64,000 nucleotides of DNA from Pseudomonadota bacterium (GTDB lineage: Bacteria; Pseudomonadota; Alphaproteobacteria; Rhodobacterales; Rhodobacteraceae), in assembly GCA_021779835.1 (NCBI GenBank), contig JAJXZX010000002.1, forward strand, positions 1 through 64,000, written 5' to 3'. Below, in pieces: positions 42,666 through 59,928 of this stretch (positions within the stretch are counted from its first letter, which is position 1; the number at the start of each line of letters is the position of its first letter). A model generated the notes under the pieces. It saw nothing but the letters and a program-made list of their open reading frames with translations, had not been told where the DNA came from and made no database searches. The translations under genes and the position numbers were made by a program.

Positions 42666-44825
42666 TTAGCCGACCGCGCGCGCAAAACTGGAGCGGTAAA
42701 GCGCCGACATATCCGCCAGCGGTGCCTCAGAGGGACCAAGCCGCACGACATGCCCGCCAAAGTGCCCGACGGCGGCGATGGGCACGCCCGCGTGACCGGC
42801 GGCGACCATCAGCGCCTCGGCCTGATCGAACGAGCAGGCGACCAGATAGCGCGCCTGATCCTCGCCGAACAGAAGCCCGGTGTCGGCGCTTTCCAGCACC
42901 ACGCCCAGGCCTGCGGCCTCGGCCATCTCAAACGCGGCGAGCGCGAGGCCGCCGTCTGACAGGTCGGTCGCGGCGCTGAAGAGGGCGCGCTGCGCTTGCA
43001 GGAAGGTGCCGTTGCGCAGCTCTGCCGCGAGATCGACATGCGGCGCGTCGCCGTCTTCGCGGTTGAACACCTCGGCCAACAGCGCCGACTGGCCCAGATG
43101 GCCGACGGTTTCGCCAATCACCACGGCAATCGCGCCCTCATGCGGCAGCCCGGCAATCATGTCGTCGAGCGATTTGAGCAGACCGACCGCGCCAATCGTC
43201 GGGGTTGGCAGGATGCCGGTGCCATCGGTTTCATTGTAAAGCGAGACGTTGCCCGACACGATCGGCATGTCGAGCGCGATGCAGGCGGCGCCGATGCCTT
43301 TGATTGCGCCAACCATCTGGCCCATGATCTCGGGTTTTTCCGGGTTGCCGAAGTTGAGGTTGTCGGTCGCGGCCAAGGGCGTCGCGCCGCAGGCGATCAG
43401 ATTGCGCCACGCCTCTGCCACCGCTTGCTTGCCGCCCTCGAACGGGTTGGCCTTGACGTAGCGCGGCGTCACGTCCGAGGTGAAGGCGAGCGCCTTGCCG
43501 GTGTCATGCACCCGCACCACGCCCGCGCCGAGACCGGGCGTGCGCACGGTATCGCCCATCACCATGGTGTCATATTGCTCCCACACCCACGATTTGCGCG
43601 CGTAGTTCGGGCTGGAGATCAGCGCCTTCAGCGCATCCAGCGGGTCGATATGCGGCACCGGGGCCAGCGGGGCGGCGGGTGGGGTTTCCACCCAGGGGCG
43701 GTCATATTCCGGCGCGGTGCCCGACAGCGCCTTCAGCGGCAGGTCGGCCTTGACCTGATTGCCGTGCATGATGAGGAAGCGGTCTTCGGCGATGGTTTCA
43801 CCGACGATGGCGAAGTCGAGATCCCATTTGTCAAACACCGCCTTGGCCTCGGCCTCTTTCTCGGGGCGAAGGACCATCAACATGCGTTCTTGGGATTCGG
43901 ACAGCATCATCTCATAGGCGGTCATGTTCGGTTCACGCACCGGCACGCGGTCGAGGTCAAGCCGGATACCAAGGTCGCCCTTGTCGCCCATTTCCACGGC
44001 AGAGCAGGTCAGGCCCGCCGCGCCCATGTCCTGAATCGAGATGACGGCGCCGGTCTGCATCAGTTCCATGCACGCCTCCATCAGGCGCTTTTCGGTGAAG
44101 GGGTCGCCAACCTGAACGGTGGGGCGCTTTTCCTCGATGGTGTCATCGAATTCCGCGCTGGCCATGGTGGCGCCGCCGACGCCATCGCGGCCGGTTTTGG
44201 CGCCGAGGTAAACCACCGGCATACCCACGCCCGAGGCGACCGAGTAGAAGATCTTGTCGGCATCGGCGAGGCCCGCCGCGAAGGCGTTGACCAGACAGTT
44301 GCCGTTATACGAGCGGTGAAAGCGCACCTCGCCGCCCACAGTGGGCACGCCAAAGCAGTTGCCGTAGGAGCCGACGCCCTCGACCACGCCCTTGACCAGA
44401 TGCGCGGTTTTCGGGTGGCTCGGCTCGCCAAAGCTGAGCGAGTTCATCGCGGCAATAGGGCGCGCGCCCATGGTGAAGACGTCGCGCAGGATGCCGCCGA
44501 CGCCGGTGGCAGCGCCCTGATGCGGCTCGATATAAGAGGGGTGGTTGTGGCTTTCCATCTTGAACACCACGGCCTGCCCGTCACCGATATCGACGACACC
44601 CGCGTTTTCGCCCGGCCCGCAGATCACTTGCGGCCCGGTGGTCGGCAGGGTGCGCAGCCATTTCTTGGACGACTTGTAGGAACAATGCTCGTTCCACATG
44701 GCGGAAAAGATGCCGAGCTCGGTAAACGTCGGCTCGCGCCCGATGATCCCCAGAAGGCGCTGATATTCGTCGGGCTTCAGCCCATGCGCAGCGATCAAGT
44801 CTTCGGTGATCTTCGGCTCGTCCAT
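42666..44825 (-). CDS. purL: Phosphoribosylformylglycinamidine synthase subunit PurL
   Basis: The 719-residue protein is the small-type PurL that works with PurS and PurQ (neither is in the window). It has [11 protein letters not shown] near 43-53, [20 protein letters not shown] with the catalytic His, and two AIRS-like halves. It uses ATP and ammonia from PurQ to make FGAM in purine synthesis. The start at 44825 gives [15 protein letters not shown]; the frame stays open into the small-RNA region, but that leader has no family similarity. The 224 bases upstream of it contain no other gene that I can support. Confidence 0.97.
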
Positions 44826-45050: not shown

Positions 45051-45130
45051 AAAAAAAAGGCCGAGCAAAGCTCGGCCTAAGTCCAACAGGGAGGTAGAAG
45101 AATATGAGACAACGTCAATCACATCCTTCT
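45051..45130 (-). ncRNA. Candidate trans-acting small RNA with anti-Shine-Dalgarno linker
   Basis: Read on the minus strand, bases 45130-45119 (AGAAGGAUGUGA) pair over 12 bp, two of them G-U, with 45107-45096 (UCAUAUUCUUCU) around an 11-base loop. A 17-base linker ACCUCCCUGUUGGACUU follows (45095-45079). Then AGGCCGAGC/GCUCGGCCU forms a 9-bp terminator with UUU loop (45078-45058) and a run of seven or eight U. Length is about 80 nt. The linker is complementary to ribosome binding sites. There is a well-spaced promoter. On the plus strand the same DNA looks like GGGAGG followed by an ATG and a 38-codon frame (45104-45220), but the U tract is on the minus side, so I prefer an RNA gene. Confidence 0.65.
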
Positions 45131-45136
45131 GCAGTG

Positions 45137-45165
45137 CAGTTAGGATGCGCAACCTTGTGGTTCAA
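45137..45165 (-). promoter_or_regulatory. Predicted sigma-70 type promoter of the small RNA
   Basis: On the minus strand TTGAAC (45165-45160) and TAACTG (45142-45137) are 17 bases apart. The last base of the -10 element is seven bases from the proposed 5' end at 45130, which is also the first base of the 12-bp stem. The -35 is good, the -10 only fair. Confidence 0.5.
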
Positions 45166-45194
45166 GACAAATCATGCCGCAGGTGCGGCAATGC

Positions 45195-45217
45195 CGCTAT
45201 GCGTTTCCTGCATATCT
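45195..45217. promoter_or_regulatory. LysR-type dyad upstream of the small RNA promoter
   Basis: CGCTATGCGTTT followed four bases later by CATATCT repeats 19 of 23 positions of the motif at 37059-37081 and contains TATGC-N7-GCATA. Its centre is about 76 bases upstream of the predicted RNA start, the usual place for LysR activators. It overlaps no codon of the LysR gene, whose stop is at 45229. Confidence 0.5.
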
Positions 45218-45228
45218 TGACTTTTTGG

Positions 45229-46125
45229 TCAAGGAATCTGCTGACGCTTGCGATGCTCAAAGATTTCCTCGGTGACGAAATCGCGGAACGCCGAGACGCG
45301 CTTGGAATGGCGCAACTCTTCGGGGTAGGCGAGGAACACCGGCACTTCGGTCGATTCCACATCCGGCAAGACACGGACAAGATTGGGGAAATCCTCGGTC
45401 AGGTAGTCTGGCAACACGCCGATGCCAAGGTTCGCCAGCACCGCCTGCAACACGCCAAAGTAGTTGTTCACCGTCAGGGTTGACCGCACGTCATAGGCCA
45501 GCAGATTTTGCACCAAAGTCGCCCCCGCCGCGACCTGCGGCGTGGTGGTGTTCTGACAAATCAGGCGATGGGCCGACAAATCCTCCAGCCGCAGCGGCGT
45601 GCCGTTCTTCTCCAGATAGTCGCGCGACGCATAAAGGCGCATCTTCACGATCATCAGCTTCTTGCGGATCAGGTCGGCCTGGCTTGGCTCTTTCATGCGG
45701 ATCGCCACGTCAGCCTCGCGCATCGGCAGGTCGAGCACACGCTCTTCCAGCATCAGGTCGATCTTGAGGTCGGGGTATTTCGCGTAAAGCGCCGACAGAC
45801 GCGGCGCCAGCCACAGCGTGCCAAAGCCGGTGGTGGTGGTCACCTTCAGCTCGCCAAACACCTCATCCTCGCTGTCGCGGATGCGCGCCGAGGCGGCGTC
45901 AAGCCGTTTGACCATCGAATTGGTCGCGTCAAACAGCAACTCTCCCTGCTCGGTGAGAATCAGTCCGCGCGCGTGACGGTGGAAAAGCGTGGTGTTCAGG
46001 CTTTCCTCAAGCGCGCGGATTTGCCGGGAAACGGCGGATTGCGACAGGTGCAGCGCCTCACCCGCATGGGTCAGGCTGCCCGCGTCGGCCACCGCGTGAA
46101 ATATTCGAAGCTTATCCCAATCCAT
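45229..46125 (-). CDS. LysR family transcriptional regulator
   Basis: The 298-residue protein has a strong N-terminal helix-turn-helix (DWDKLRIFHAVADAGSLTHA then LSQSAVSRQIRALEE at 28-42) and a ligand domain from about 90. It is divergent from the fused indolepyruvate oxidoreductase. Motifs resembling its expected half-sites occur in its own promoter, upstream of the adjacent small RNA and upstream of the DUF1127 pair, so it may control all three. The ligand is unknown. Confidence 0.9.
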   Translation of the reverse strand: MDWDKLRIFHAVADAGSLTHAGEALHLSQSAVSRQIRALEESLNTTLFHRHARGLILTEQGELLFDATNSMVKRLDAASARIRDSEDEVFGELKVTTTTGFGTLWLAPRLSALYAKYPDLKIDLMLEERVLDLPMREADVAIRMKEPSQADLIRKKLMIVKMRLYASRDYLEKNGTPLRLEDLSAHRLICQNTTTPQVAAGATLVQNLLAYDVRSTLTVNNYFGVLQAVLANLGIGVLPDYLTEDFPNLVRVLPDVESTEVPVFLAYPEELRHSKRVSAFRDFVTEEIFEHRKRQQIP

Positions 46126-46176
46126 CTCGCAACTCTCTGCAACTTGTCAGACGCTAACATTGAAGGGGCTGTCTTA

Positions 46177-46193
46177 GATACGTTTTGTGCATT
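46177..46193. promoter_or_regulatory. LysR-type motif in the LysR/indolepyruvate oxidoreductase divergent region
   Basis: GATACGTTTTGTGCATT matches TATGCGTTTTGCGCATA (part of the 37059-37081 motif) at 13 of 17 positions. It lies 52 bases upstream of the LysR start, as expected for autoregulation. Confidence 0.45.
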
Positions 46194-46224
46194 GTAAATG
46201 AACATTTCTGAAAAATCTTCTTCG

Positions 46225-46245
46225 TAGGTCAGTTAATTTGACCTA
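46225..46245. promoter_or_regulatory. Perfect dyad upstream of the indolepyruvate oxidoreductase gene
   Basis: TAGGTCA-GTTAATT-TGACCTA has perfect seven-base arms and a seven-base AT-rich spacer. It ends 39 bases before the ATG at 46285, in a position that overlaps or follows the promoter, so it is probably a repressor operator. It differs from the LysR-type motif nearby. Confidence 0.6.
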
Positions 46246-46284
46246 TCATGCAGGAACAGCGCAGAAAGCATTGGGAGGTGCTTA

Positions 46285-49200
46285 ATGAGCAGGCAGGATA
46301 TCCAGCTTTCCGACCGTTTCGACCTTTCCAAGTCGCCGGTGCTATTGAATGGCACGCAGGCGCTGGTGCGGTTGATGCTGATGCAAAAGGCGCGCGATGT
46401 GGCGGCGGGGCTGCACACGGGCGGCTATGTCACCGGCTATCGCGGCTCGCCTTTGGGTGCGGTCGATATGCAGATGGCGCGCGCCAAGCCAGAGTTGGAG
46501 GCGGCGGATGTGCTGTTTCAACCCGGCCTGAACGAGGATCTTGCCGCCACCGCGATCTGGGGAACGCAACAGGCGGAACTGCGTGGCGAGGGGAAGTTCG
46601 ACGGCGTGTTTGCGCTTTGGTATGGCAAGGGGCCGGGGGTGGACCGCTCTGGCGACGTGATGCGCCACGCCAATATGGCCGGCACCTCGCCCAAGGGCGG
46701 CGTGCTGATGGCGATGGGGGACGACCACACGGGGGAGTCATCGACCACGCTGCACCAGTCCGACTGGGCGATGGTGGATGCTTATATGCCGATCGTCTCG
46801 CCCGCCGGGGTGCAGGAATTGATGGATTACGGCCTTTACGGCTGGGCTTTGTCGCGCTTTGCCGGGGTTTGGGTCGGGCTCAAGACGATGAAGGATACTG
46901 TCGAGGCGACCTCGGTTGTGGATGGCAATCCGCACCGGCTGTCCTTCGTGACGCCGGATTTCAAGCTGCCGCCGGGCGGGGTGAATATCCGCCTGATCGA
47001 CACCCCCGTGCTGCAAGAAGCGCGGATGATAGATTACAAGAGGTTCGCCGCCGAAGCCTTTGCGCGGGCTAACAAAATCGACAAGCGGGTGTGGAGTGCC
47101 GCGGGCGCGAAAATCGGCTTTGTCGCGGCGGGCAAGAACTGGCTGGACCTCGTTCACGCGCTCTCATTGCTGGGCATTGACGAGGCCGAGGCGGAACGGC
47201 TGGGCGTCACCACCTACAAGGTCGGGCAGGTTTGGCCGCTGGATATGCAGTCTTTCCACGAATGGGCCGAGGGGCTGGACCTGATCGTGGTGGTCGAGGA
47301 AAAGCGCAAGCTGATCGAGGTGCAGGTCAAAGAGGCGATCTTTGACGACCGTCACGGTCGGCGCGTTTATGGCTGGCACAAGGGCGACACGTGGGAACAT
47401 GGCCGTCAGGTTGAACTGTTCCCGACCCGCTATGCGCTGGACCCGATCCTGATCGCAGAAAAGCTGGGCGAGATCCTGATCGACGAGGGGCGCGGCACGG
47501 AAAGTGTGAAGAACGCGCTGCAACGCCTTGAGGATACACGCAAAGCCGATAACGCCAAAGACCTTGCCGCGCGGTTGCCCTACTTCTGTTCCGGCTGCCC
47601 GCACAACACCTCGACCAAGGTTCCAGCGGGCAGTCGCGCCTATGCCGGCATCGGCTGTCACTACATGGTGCAGTGGATGGACCGCCAGACCACCGGCTTT
47701 ACCCAGATGGGCGGCGAAGGTGCGAACTGGATCGGCGAGGCGCCGTTTTCGACGCGCGGCCATGTGTTCCAGAACCTCGGCGATGGCACCTACAACCACT
47801 CTGGTGTGCAGGCGATCCGCGCAGCTTTGGCGGCGGGCACCACGATCACCTACAAGATCTTGTATAATGACGCGGTTGCGATGACTGGCGGGCAAACGAA
47901 CGAGGGCGGGCTGACCGCCGACAAGATCGCACGCGAGATTACGGCGATGGGGGTGCAGCACATCGCCGTGGTTTATGATGAAAAGGAGCCGATAGACCGG
48001 GCGCAGTTCCCGAAAACGGTGGCATTCCACGAACGCTCCGCCCTGATGACCGTGCAGGAAGAATTTAGCAAAATCAGCGGTGTATCGGCGATAGTTTATG
48101 TGCAAACCTGCGCTGCCGAAAAGCGTCGTCGCCGCAAAAAGGGCGATTTCCCCGACCCGGACAAACGCATCTTCATCAACACCGACATCTGCGAGGGCTG
48201 CGGCGATTGCGGGGTGCAGTCGAACTGCGTCTCGATCGTCCCGGTCGAGACCGAACTGGGCCGCAAACGCGCCATCGACCAGAGCAGCTGCAACAAAGAT
48301 TATTCATGCGTCAAAGGGTTTTGCCCGTCGTTCGTGATGTTGGAAGGCGCCAAGGTCAAGAAGGCCGCGACCGCCTCGGTTGACGTGCCGGACCTGCCGG
48401 AACCCACGCTGCCGACCATCAACGGCACCTATAATGTGGTGATTACCGGGGTTGGCGGCACCGGGGTTGTGACCGTGGGCGCGATCATGGCGATGGCGGC
48501 GCATGTCGATGGCAAGGGCGCGGGCATGATGGAGATGGCGGGGCTGGCCCAAAAGGGCGGCGCGGTGCATATCCACTGTAGGATCGCCAACCAACCCGCT
48601 GATATATCAGCAATTCGCGTTGCCGTGGGCGAGGCAGATGCGGTGATCGGGGGCGATCTGGTGGTGACGGCGGGCGCGCGCACCTTGGGGTTGATGACCA
48701 CGGGGCGCACGGGGGCGGCGGTCAACAGCCACCAGATCATCACCGGGGACTTTACTCGCAACACAGAATTCCGTATTCCTTTTGATAGGTTAGAGCTTGG
48801 TCTTGAAGCACGGGTCAAGGACCGGCTGACGCTGTTTGACGCTACAGAACTGGCGCGCGTGCTGCTGGGCGACTCGATCTATTCCAACATGATGGTGTTT
48901 GGCGCGGCGTGGCAGATGGGGCTGATCCCGTTGTCCGAGGCGGCGATTTTGCGCGCGATTGAGTTGAACAAGGCCTCGGTCGAGGGCAACAAACGCGCGT
49001 TTGAACTGGGCCGTTGGGCGGTGGTTCACCCCGATCAGGCGGCGCGGGCGCTGGCGCCGAATGTCAGCGAAAAGCCGAAAACGCTGGAGGAGAAGATCGC
49101 CTTTCGCGTGGCGCATTTGACCATCTATCAATCGGCCCGGCTGGCGCGGCGTTATGTGAAACTGGTCGATGCCGTCACCGATCCTCGGCTGAAAGCGGCG

Positions 49201-57741: not shown

Positions 57742-58512
57742 ATGTCCTATCAGACCATCACCTACGCAGAGGCCGATGGCCTTGGCCTGATTACCCTGAC
57801 GCGGCCCGCGGTGATGAACGCGCTGAACCGCCAGATGCGGGCAGAGATTACAGCGGCCCTTCGCAACACCACGGCCCGCGCGCTGGTCATCACCGGCGAA
57901 GGCCGCGCCTTCTGCTCGGGTCAGGATCTCGCCGACGCGCCCGCAGATGGCCGTTTCGATATCGAGGCGACCTTGCGCGACGAATATGTCCCCATGCTGC
58001 GCGCCATCGTCGATTGCCCGGTGCCGGTGATCGCCGCCGTCAACGGCAGCGCCGCCGGGGCAGGGGCCAACCTCGCGCTGGCTTGCGACGTGGTGATTGC
58101 GGCGGAAAGTGCCAGCTTTATCCAAGCCTTCACCCGCATCGGCCTGATCCCCGACGCAGGCGGCACCTGGACCCTGCCGCGACAGGTTGGAAACGCCCGC
58201 GCCATGGGGGCGATGCTGTTTGCCGACACGATCACCGCGCGTCAGGCCGCCGACTGGGGCATGATTTGGGAGGCGGTGCCCGATGACCTTTTCGCCGCGC
58301 ACTGGCAAGCGCGCGCGCAAAGCCTCGCCAGCGGCCCGACGGACGCCTACCGGAACCTCAAAGTCGCGCTGCGGGCCAGTGCCGACAACACGCTTGATGC
58401 GCAACTGGCGTTAGAGGCAAAACTGCAAGGGATATGTGGGGCCACGGCCGACTTTTACGAGGGCGTCAGCGCCTTCCTGCAAAAACGCAAAGCCCGCTTT
58501 ACCGGCCACTAA
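57742..58512 (+). CDS. Enoyl-CoA hydratase/isomerase family protein (PaaG-like)
   Basis: The 256-residue protein is a crotonase. Oxyanion-hole segments are AFCSGQDLAD and NGSAAGAGANLALACD; the active-site region IPDAGGTWTLPR has Asp where hydratases have Glu, as in PaaG-type isomerases. A GGAG is at good spacing to the ATG at 57742. The substrate is not clear; a link to phenylacetyl-CoA is possible because the upstream region of the window has an aryl-pyruvate oxidoreductase, but the two genes are 8 kb apart. Confidence 0.85.
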   Translation: MSYQTITYAEADGLGLITLTRPAVMNALNRQMRAEITAALRNTTARALVITGEGRAFCSGQDLADAPADGRFDIEATLRDEYVPMLRAIVDCPVPVIAAVNGSAAGAGANLALACDVVIAAESASFIQAFTRIGLIPDAGGTWTLPRQVGNARAMGAMLFADTITARQAADWGMIWEAVPDDLFAAHWQARAQSLASGPTDAYRNLKVALRASADNTLDAQLALEAKLQGICGATADFYEGVSAFLQKRKARFTGH

Positions 58513-58632: not shown

Positions 58633-59928
58633 TCAACGCTCGGCAATATCCTTATAATCGCGCTTGGTCGGCCCGATATACAGCTGCCGCGGCCGCCCGA
58701 TTTTCTGATCCTTCTCGGCGATCATTTCTTTCCATTGCGAAATCCAACCCACCGTCCGCGACAGCGCGAAAATCGGGGTGAACATCGAGGTCGGGAAGCC
58801 GATCGCCTCCAGAATGATGCCGGAGTAGAAATCGACGTTGGGATAGAGCTTTTTGGAGATGAAGTACTCATCCTCCAACGCGATCCGCTCCAACTCTTTC
58901 GCGACTTTCAGGGTCTCGTTATTGTGGATGCCCATCAGGTCGAGCACCTCGTCGGCGCTTTCCTTCATCACTTTCGCGCGTGGGTCGAAGTTTTTGTAAA
59001 CCCGGTGCCCGAAGCCCATCAGGCGGAACGGGTCATCCTTGTCCTTGGCGCGCGCGATGTATTCCGGGATGCGATCCACGGTGCCGATTTCGCGCAGCAT
59101 CTCCAGGCATGCCTGGTTCGCCCCGCCATGCGCCGGCCCCCAAAGGCAGGCGATCCCCGCCGCGATACAGGCAAACGGGTTGGCCCCTGAAGAGCCCGCC
59201 AGCCGCACCGTCGAGGTCGAGGCGTTCTGCTCGTGATCGGCATGCAGGGTAAAGATCCGGTCCATCGCTTTCGCAATAATCGGGTTCACCACATAGGGCT
59301 CTGCCGGGACCGAGAAGCACATGTGCAGGAAGTTCGACGCGTAATCGAGGTCGTTGCGCGGATAAACGAAGGGCTGACCCACATAGTATTTATAGGCCAT
59401 TGCGGCGACGGTCGGCATCTTGGCGATCATGCGTATGGCGGCGACTTCGCGCTGCCACTCGTCATTGATATCAAGGCTGTCGTGGTAGAAGGCCGACATC
59501 GCGCCGACCACGCCCACCATCGTCGCCATCGGGTGGCTGTCGCGGCGGAAGCCACGGAAGAAATAGTGGATCTGCTCGTGCAGCATGGTGTGCCGCGTCA
59601 CGCGGCCTTCGAAGTCCTGCAATTGCGTTGCGTTCGGCAACTCGCCGTATAGCAGCAGGTAGCAAACTTCGAGGTAGTGCGACTCGTCGGCAAGCTGCTC
59701 GATCGGGTAGCCGCGATACAACAGTTCGCCCTTGTCGCCGTCGATATAGGTGATCGACGATTCGCAAGCTGCGGTGGAGGTGAAGCCGGGGTCGTAGGTG
59801 AACACGTCGCCTTGCGCATAAAGCTTGCGGATGTCGATGACATCCGTCCCGACGGTTGGCGCGTAAATAGGCATCTCAATCGACTTGTTATCGAAGGTCA
59901 GCGTCGCAGTTCTTTTCGTGTCCGCCAT
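58633..59928 (-). CDS. gltA: Citrate synthase
   Basis: The 431-residue protein is a type I (Gram-negative, hexameric type) citrate synthase. The active-site histidines are in [15 protein letters not shown] and [15 protein letters not shown], and the Asp is in the later GIIL region. The N-terminus [10 protein letters not shown] is typical. It condenses oxaloacetate and acetyl-CoA at the entry to the citric acid cycle. gltX lies 68 bases upstream on the same strand. Confidence 0.97.

Follow-up and report, generated by a model that had tools for sequence, protein, structure and literature searches.

The DNA analysed here, a stretch of 64,000 nucleotides from a Rhodobacterales bacterium (the window), encodes on its minus strand, between lysR and purL, a small RNA of about 79 nt that is, judged by sequence and gene order, the orthologue of SorY (RSs1543; Rfam RF02651) of Rhodobacter sphaeroides. 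The sRNA has already been described; what we add, in a new organism, is its distribution across the family, its RpoH promoter and a proposed connection to VtlR and the AbcR RNAs. We favour, with a probability of roughly 0.9, a model in which SorY is produced under stress via RpoH and represses mRNAs of uptake proteins by anti-Shine-Dalgarno pairing. A first-pass annotation had described an sRNA acting in trans through an anti-Shine-Dalgarno linker and made from a promoter of its own; that description is strongly supported, with corrections to the class of the promoter and to the naming of the family.

We propose the following model for its action. Upon heat or singlet-oxygen/oxidative stress, RpoH would drive synthesis of SorY, with the neighbouring VtlR-type activator probably adding a second input. 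Hfq-bound SorY would then pair its CCUCCCUG linker with GGGAGG-type ribosome-binding sites in mRNAs for periplasmic solute-binding proteins and for other transport or redox genes. Pairing would block translation, destabilise the mRNA and thereby lower carbon uptake, an effect published for R. sphaeroides takP.

Table 1. Features of the sorY locus and of the SorX copies in the same genome (window positions unless stated otherwise).
Feature	Position	Strand	Basis or remark
purL, downstream neighbour and synteny marker	42666..44825	-	lysR-RNA-purL order
SorY sRNA orthologue, predicted +1 G45129 to end of U tract	45051..45129	-	cmscan RF02651, fold z, synteny, promoter-derived +1
Rho-independent terminator, GGCCGAGC stem and eight U	45051..45077	-	fold; U run in orthologues
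Linker ACCUCCCUGUUGGACUUA, single-stranded, predicted anti-Shine-Dalgarno pairing site	45078..45095	-	90% identity over 108 loci
5' hairpin (12 + 3 bp), sequence drifting, structure kept	45096..45129	-	fold z, arm swap, covariation
Predicted RpoHI/RpoHII-type promoter, CTTG (C-37 to G-34) and CCTAACT (C-15 to T-9)	45138..45166	-	spacing over 108 loci
Putative VtlR/LsrB operator, TATGC-N7-GCATA palindrome (45214-45198) overlapping box GCATAGCGGCATT (45202-45190, at -73)	45190..45214	-	sequence pattern
VtlR/LsrB-family LysR-type regulator gene, immediately upstream of the RNA	45229..46125	-	PDB 9hh1 match, VtlR identity
SorX copies	L002 1494-1566, L003 1494-1566 (G000:C45, about 58120-58192 and 59622-59694)		first copy 3' of ompR-like gene

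Identity of the RNA

When compared with all Rfam families by cmscan, the window RNA fits SorY best (66.4 bits, E = 1.5e-12, full-length); it also matches SorX (RF02784) over its full length (42.6 bits) and gives a weak cross-match to MmgR/suhB (RF00519; 27.9 bits, below the cut-off). The Rfam gathering scores of SorY and SorX, 111 and 46.6 bits, are both higher than the scores reached, and for this reason a default Rfam scan of the window is empty. The earlier opinion that the RNA belongs to no named family was nevertheless wrong: it is SorY, a relative of SorX.

How should the SorY cut-off be read? It was reached in none of 61 related genomes and is passed by R. sphaeroides-type copies alone, namely in Cereibacter (Luteovulum) azotoformans (L155, 111.4 bits) and on an R. 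sphaeroides-like contig (G081:C4, L256, 115 bits), so that it acts at approximately the level of the species. Both passing copies sit immediately 3' of a LysR gene sharing 81% identity with the window LysR, and on the strength of this common locus we identify the window RNA as the SorY orthologue. It has the further features of the family, two hairpins flanking a UACCUCCCUGUUGGACUU linker and a terminator with a U run, and it shares the linker core, which is identical, and a predicted RpoH-type promoter with R. sphaeroides SorY, from which it differs in the diverged sequence of its 5' hairpin.

Assignment to SorX is disfavoured by the sub-threshold score and by the locus: SorX (RSs2461) has the linker ACCUCCCUGUUGGAC and the terminator layout in common with the window RNA, but arises by cleavage within the 3'UTR of an ompR-like gene. 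Two separate SorX copies, with scores of 68.8 and 67.7 bits that both exceed the cut-off, lie about 1.5 kb from each other in the window genome (Table 1), and paired SorX copies occur in several relatives too. MmgR/suhB and BjrC1505 (RF02356) share CUCCCU...GACUU before the terminator with the window RNA, but occupy other loci and have other 5' parts. BjrC1505 matches of 57.4 and 41.8 bits fall at loci that also match SorX, and the BjrC1505 matches at L466 1004-1126 and L467 1053-1189, one of them above the cut-off, also match SorX and SorY. This overlap suggests that the BjrC1505, SorX and SorY families of Rfam form one superfamily with a common CCUCCCUGUU-GAACU linker. A fourth RNA with this architecture, whose linker is CTCCCTGTCGGAC and whose SorX score is 36.3 bits, was seen at an unrelated locus (L005 1503-1573, minus strand; G000:C17:25777-25839).

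Anatomy and conservation

The 5' stem, the ACCUCCC linker, the 9-bp terminator and the U run recognised in the first reading are all present on the minus strand. The linker extends from A45095 to A45078, with ACCUCCC as its first bases, and is followed by the terminator stem (45077-45059) and the eight U residues (45058-45051). The 80 nt fold with an energy of -32.7 kcal/mol (z = -5.28), equalled by none of 200 dinucleotide shuffles. The linker, originally called unpaired, is indeed exposed between the hairpins, but part of it can form a weak 2-bp hairpin and it is therefore not wholly unpaired.

Because loci found via the linker must contain the linker, we chose loci by lysR: the orthologue was located by its protein in one genome per genus, and the DNA 3' of it was taken without use of the RNA. 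A strong lysR match was present in 117 of 120 genomes of the family, at one place per genome. The linker occurs in 109 of 116 regions 3' of the lysR orthologue (the core in 108 and a variant in one), while a reverse-strand control on these regions returned no linker and best matches at chance level. Identity within the 20-nt linker is 90% across the 108 loci, and ACCTCCCTGTTGGACT is invariant in all 56 aligned sequences. The 38-nt 5' hairpin behaves differently, with a mean ungapped position-by-position identity of 31% across the 108 orthologues; its structure is nonetheless kept, as indicated by a mean fold z of -3.2 against shuffles, with z below -1 in 96%.

In a MAFFT alignment of 56 genera the 5' hairpin came out misaligned and RNAalifold detected the terminator alone, so the hairpin was assessed through fold z, arm swapping and a gap-free subset. 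Hairpin arms pair better with their own partner than with one swapped between species (-15.1 versus -8.8 kcal/mol; the own partner wins in 106 of 108 cases), a comparison in which own pairing is somewhat favoured since the arms were picked from each sequence's own fold. For the 17 sequences of the gap-free subset, the covariation score is higher than in any of 500 shuffles. The terminator has a U run of at least five in all 108 orthologues. The order lysR-RNA-purL is complete in 97 of 149 loci, most others ending before purL, and a Paracoccus record has lysR and then purL.

A species-level Rfam entry thereby becomes an RNA that almost all genera of the family possess, in which selection keeps the anti-Shine-Dalgarno linker and lets the hairpin sequence drift. 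The first-pass annotation had pointed to a plus-strand open reading frame at 45104-45220 whose coding conservation would speak against an RNA gene; we reject a coding role, as the frame runs through the hairpin, where the sequence is not conserved.

Promoter and alternative origins of the transcript

The TTGAAC-N17-TAACTG element noted upstream of the RNA (45165-45137) is present, but its class had been misread. The window carries CTTG-N18-CCTAACT (45166-45163 and 45144-45138), and TTG-N18-CYTA recurs at exactly this spacing in 63 of 108 loci, compared with about one expected from shuffles at any spacing. Two positions that were not used for selection are also retained in these 63 promoters, C-37 in 59 of them and T-9 in all. 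RpoHI and RpoHII promoter positions of R. sphaeroides (PMC3441632) coincide with those in the sorY promoters, and given these positions and the fixed spacing we reject a sigma-70 reading. We thus predict that sorY of the window is under an RpoHI/RpoHII-type promoter, to whose positions its sequence fits, dependence on these factors being published for R. sphaeroides only. In that species SorY depends on RpoHI/RpoHII, is bound by Hfq and lowers takP, the mRNA of a malate TRAP transporter, according to published work; it is made from its own promoter and start site with no processing (PMC6238624). The published start at genome position 1,632,642 (PMC6238624) precedes by 2 nt the +1 that the promoter of L256 predicts, assuming that contig G081:C4 corresponds to chromosome 1 of R. 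sphaeroides 2.4.1.

These data bear on two other origins of the transcript. The RNA could mainly be a processed 3' end of the lysR mRNA, with the promoter marginal, since it lies on the lysR strand about 100 nt past the stop codon and since SorX in R. sphaeroides derives from a 3'UTR (PMC6238624); the RpoH promoter at fixed spacing in 63 of 108 loci and the unprocessed published SorY, with its own start site, make such an origin improbable. Still further from the data is the notion that we are looking at nothing other than the lysR transcription terminator with chance pairing upstream of it. The hairpin would also stop a lysR read-through transcript, but a linker far more conserved than the adjoining hairpin, a structure kept at 31% identity, a conserved promoter and a characterised orthologue leave it next to no probability, and we take it to be refuted by the comparative data.

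Candidate targets of the linker

Ribosome-binding sites of the GGGAGG type are complementary to the linker. Of 403 genes sampled from this genome, 23 have a GGGAGG leader, among them all three TRAP binding-protein genes of the sample, takP included (p = 1.6e-4); the fourth TRAP binding-protein gene of the genome, read directly, has one too. The takP orthologue, recognised by eye from its sequence, has a AAAGGGAGG leader, and another TRAP binding-protein gene, with PDB 4pf6 as the closest structure to its product, has TCAGGGAGG in this genome and CAGGGAGG in most congeners. Transporter mRNAs, suggested as targets in the first-pass annotation, are published as such for SorY and takP, and the leaders of the TRAP binding proteins here are consistent with this. 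Elsewhere in the genome (L531; G000:C63, about 45250-47444), soxX- and soxA-like genes, named by eye, both have CAGGGAGG leaders complementary to the linker.

The exact form of the site originally envisaged, CAACAGGGAGG, is seldom seen among the leaders of this genome; what recurs is the complementary core GGGAGG. Across genera, CAACAGGGAGG precedes the ATG of about 15 solute-binding proteins among 51 genes, compared with none of 13 for the motif ACACAAGGAGG, but plain GGGAGG leaders include three solute-binding proteins in about 24, and the excess for CAACAGGGAGG is not clearly above this. As the plain control also yields solute-binding proteins, an effect of complementarity beyond GGGAGG is not demonstrated. 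Ranking the genes by duplex energy alone singled out no target, the takP leader standing at rank 52 of 403, and the linker is close to a generic anti-Shine-Dalgarno sequence; its target specificity is accordingly a supposition. The anatomy of the RNA together with the published orthologue supports the silencing mechanism, and the single targets named here are candidates.

Proposed relation to the AbcR RNAs of rhizobia

What is the regulator encoded next to sorY? By its best matches, the window LysR belongs to the VtlR/LsrB family: it matches PDB 9hh1 with E 3.6e-72 (next structure, 6.8e-31) and is 41% identical to an R. leguminosarum protein annotated VtlR and 51% identical to an Azospirillum LysR. 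With R. leguminosarum VtlR as the query, the window LysR scores 247 bits versus 92 bits for the next LysR in the part of the genome searched. The sorY promoters, moreover, carry a recurrent element, GCAT-N3-NG-N3-T, at -73 or -72 in 47 of 63, where chance predicts 0.85 at any position, and 45 of 63 contain a palindrome ATGC-N6..8-GCAT (0.25 expected). The element resembles the LsrB consensus box GCAT-N3-TG-N3-T (PMC8844928), with another base in place of T at one position, as a comparison of the boxes of the window (GCATAGCGGCATT), R. sphaeroides (GCATGGCGGCCAT), R. leguminosarum (GCATGACTGGCAT) and S. meliloti (GCATGGCTGTCAT) illustrates. The sorY promoters would therefore share a VtlR-box-like operator, a putative site, with the abcR promoters.

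Two ar15 (AbcR; RF02345) RNAs come after vtlR/lsrB in the records of R. leguminosarum and S. meliloti, in agreement with the published position of the abcR pair beside vtlR/lsrB in rhizobia (PMC5461406, PMC8844928). AbcR1 requires LsrB via the GCAT-N3-TG-N3-T box and AbcR2 requires RpoH1, and both act on transporter mRNAs by anti-Shine-Dalgarno motifs (PMC8844928). AbcR RNAs of the Rhizobiales thus resemble SorY in their place directly 3' of a VtlR/LsrB-type lysR, in the upstream box, in an anti-Shine-Dalgarno motif, which in AbcR silences mRNAs of solute-binding proteins, and in RpoH control, found there in a sibling. They differ in being about 113 nt long, with two anti-Shine-Dalgarno motifs and three stems, and in usually occurring in tandem. 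Based on place, operator, RpoH input and mode of action, we propose SorY as the Rhodobacterales counterpart of AbcR, with VtlR and RpoH inputs, which would silence solute-binding-protein mRNAs by anti-Shine-Dalgarno pairing.

A broader reading, which extends the RpoH-SorY model and does not contradict it, is that SorY and AbcR represent a single inherited module, in which a VtlR/LsrB-type LysR gene precedes an anti-Shine-Dalgarno RNA that silences solute-binding proteins, and that in Rhodobacterales a single RNA takes both the VtlR input, which in Sinorhizobium goes to AbcR1, and the RpoH input, which goes to AbcR2. The family of the adjacent regulator, the two ar15 RNAs after its rhizobial orthologues, the common box and the division of inputs between AbcR1 and AbcR2 all point this way, as does a SorX-like RNA in another alphaproteobacterial family (L465, 42.6 bits) that is encoded immediately 3' of a LysR with 48% identity to the window LysR and has the same box. 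Against common descent of the RNAs themselves counts the ar15 covariance model, which finds nothing in the window with E values up to 1 and scores 106-127 bits at rhizobial loci; two unrelated anti-Shine-Dalgarno RNAs could also have settled at the same site, and the putative sorY operator departs from the consensus T at one position. On balance we consider the inherited module more probable than not. We lean a little less firmly, at slightly better than even odds, towards the wider claim that the vtlR-sRNA locus is one ancient alphaproteobacterial module with SorY and AbcR as its branches, in which SorY would integrate redox or metabolic control by VtlR/LsrB with RpoH stress control and silence solute-binding proteins globally.

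If the VtlR operator is real, two systems studied apart from each other, the singlet-oxygen sRNAs of phototrophs and the AbcR sRNAs known from rhizobia and Brucella, would form a single regulatory module. No relevant paper linking AbcR and SorY was found among the open-access papers searched, and an earlier link may exist in the subscription literature; a study of Ruegeria pomeroyi sRNAs (PMC4809877) does not mention SorX or SorY. The L465 RNA (915-1062), 3' of a VtlR-like lysR, has extra hairpins with CUCCCUCCC and CUCCCA, as in AbcR, together with a SorX-type linker, and may bridge the AbcR and the SorX/SorY types. The S. meliloti record CP090106.1 (3.7 Mb), titled plasmid pSymB in PLSDB, bears trxB and lsrB as well as the abcR pair, all of which lie on the chromosome elsewhere, and is probably mislabelled.
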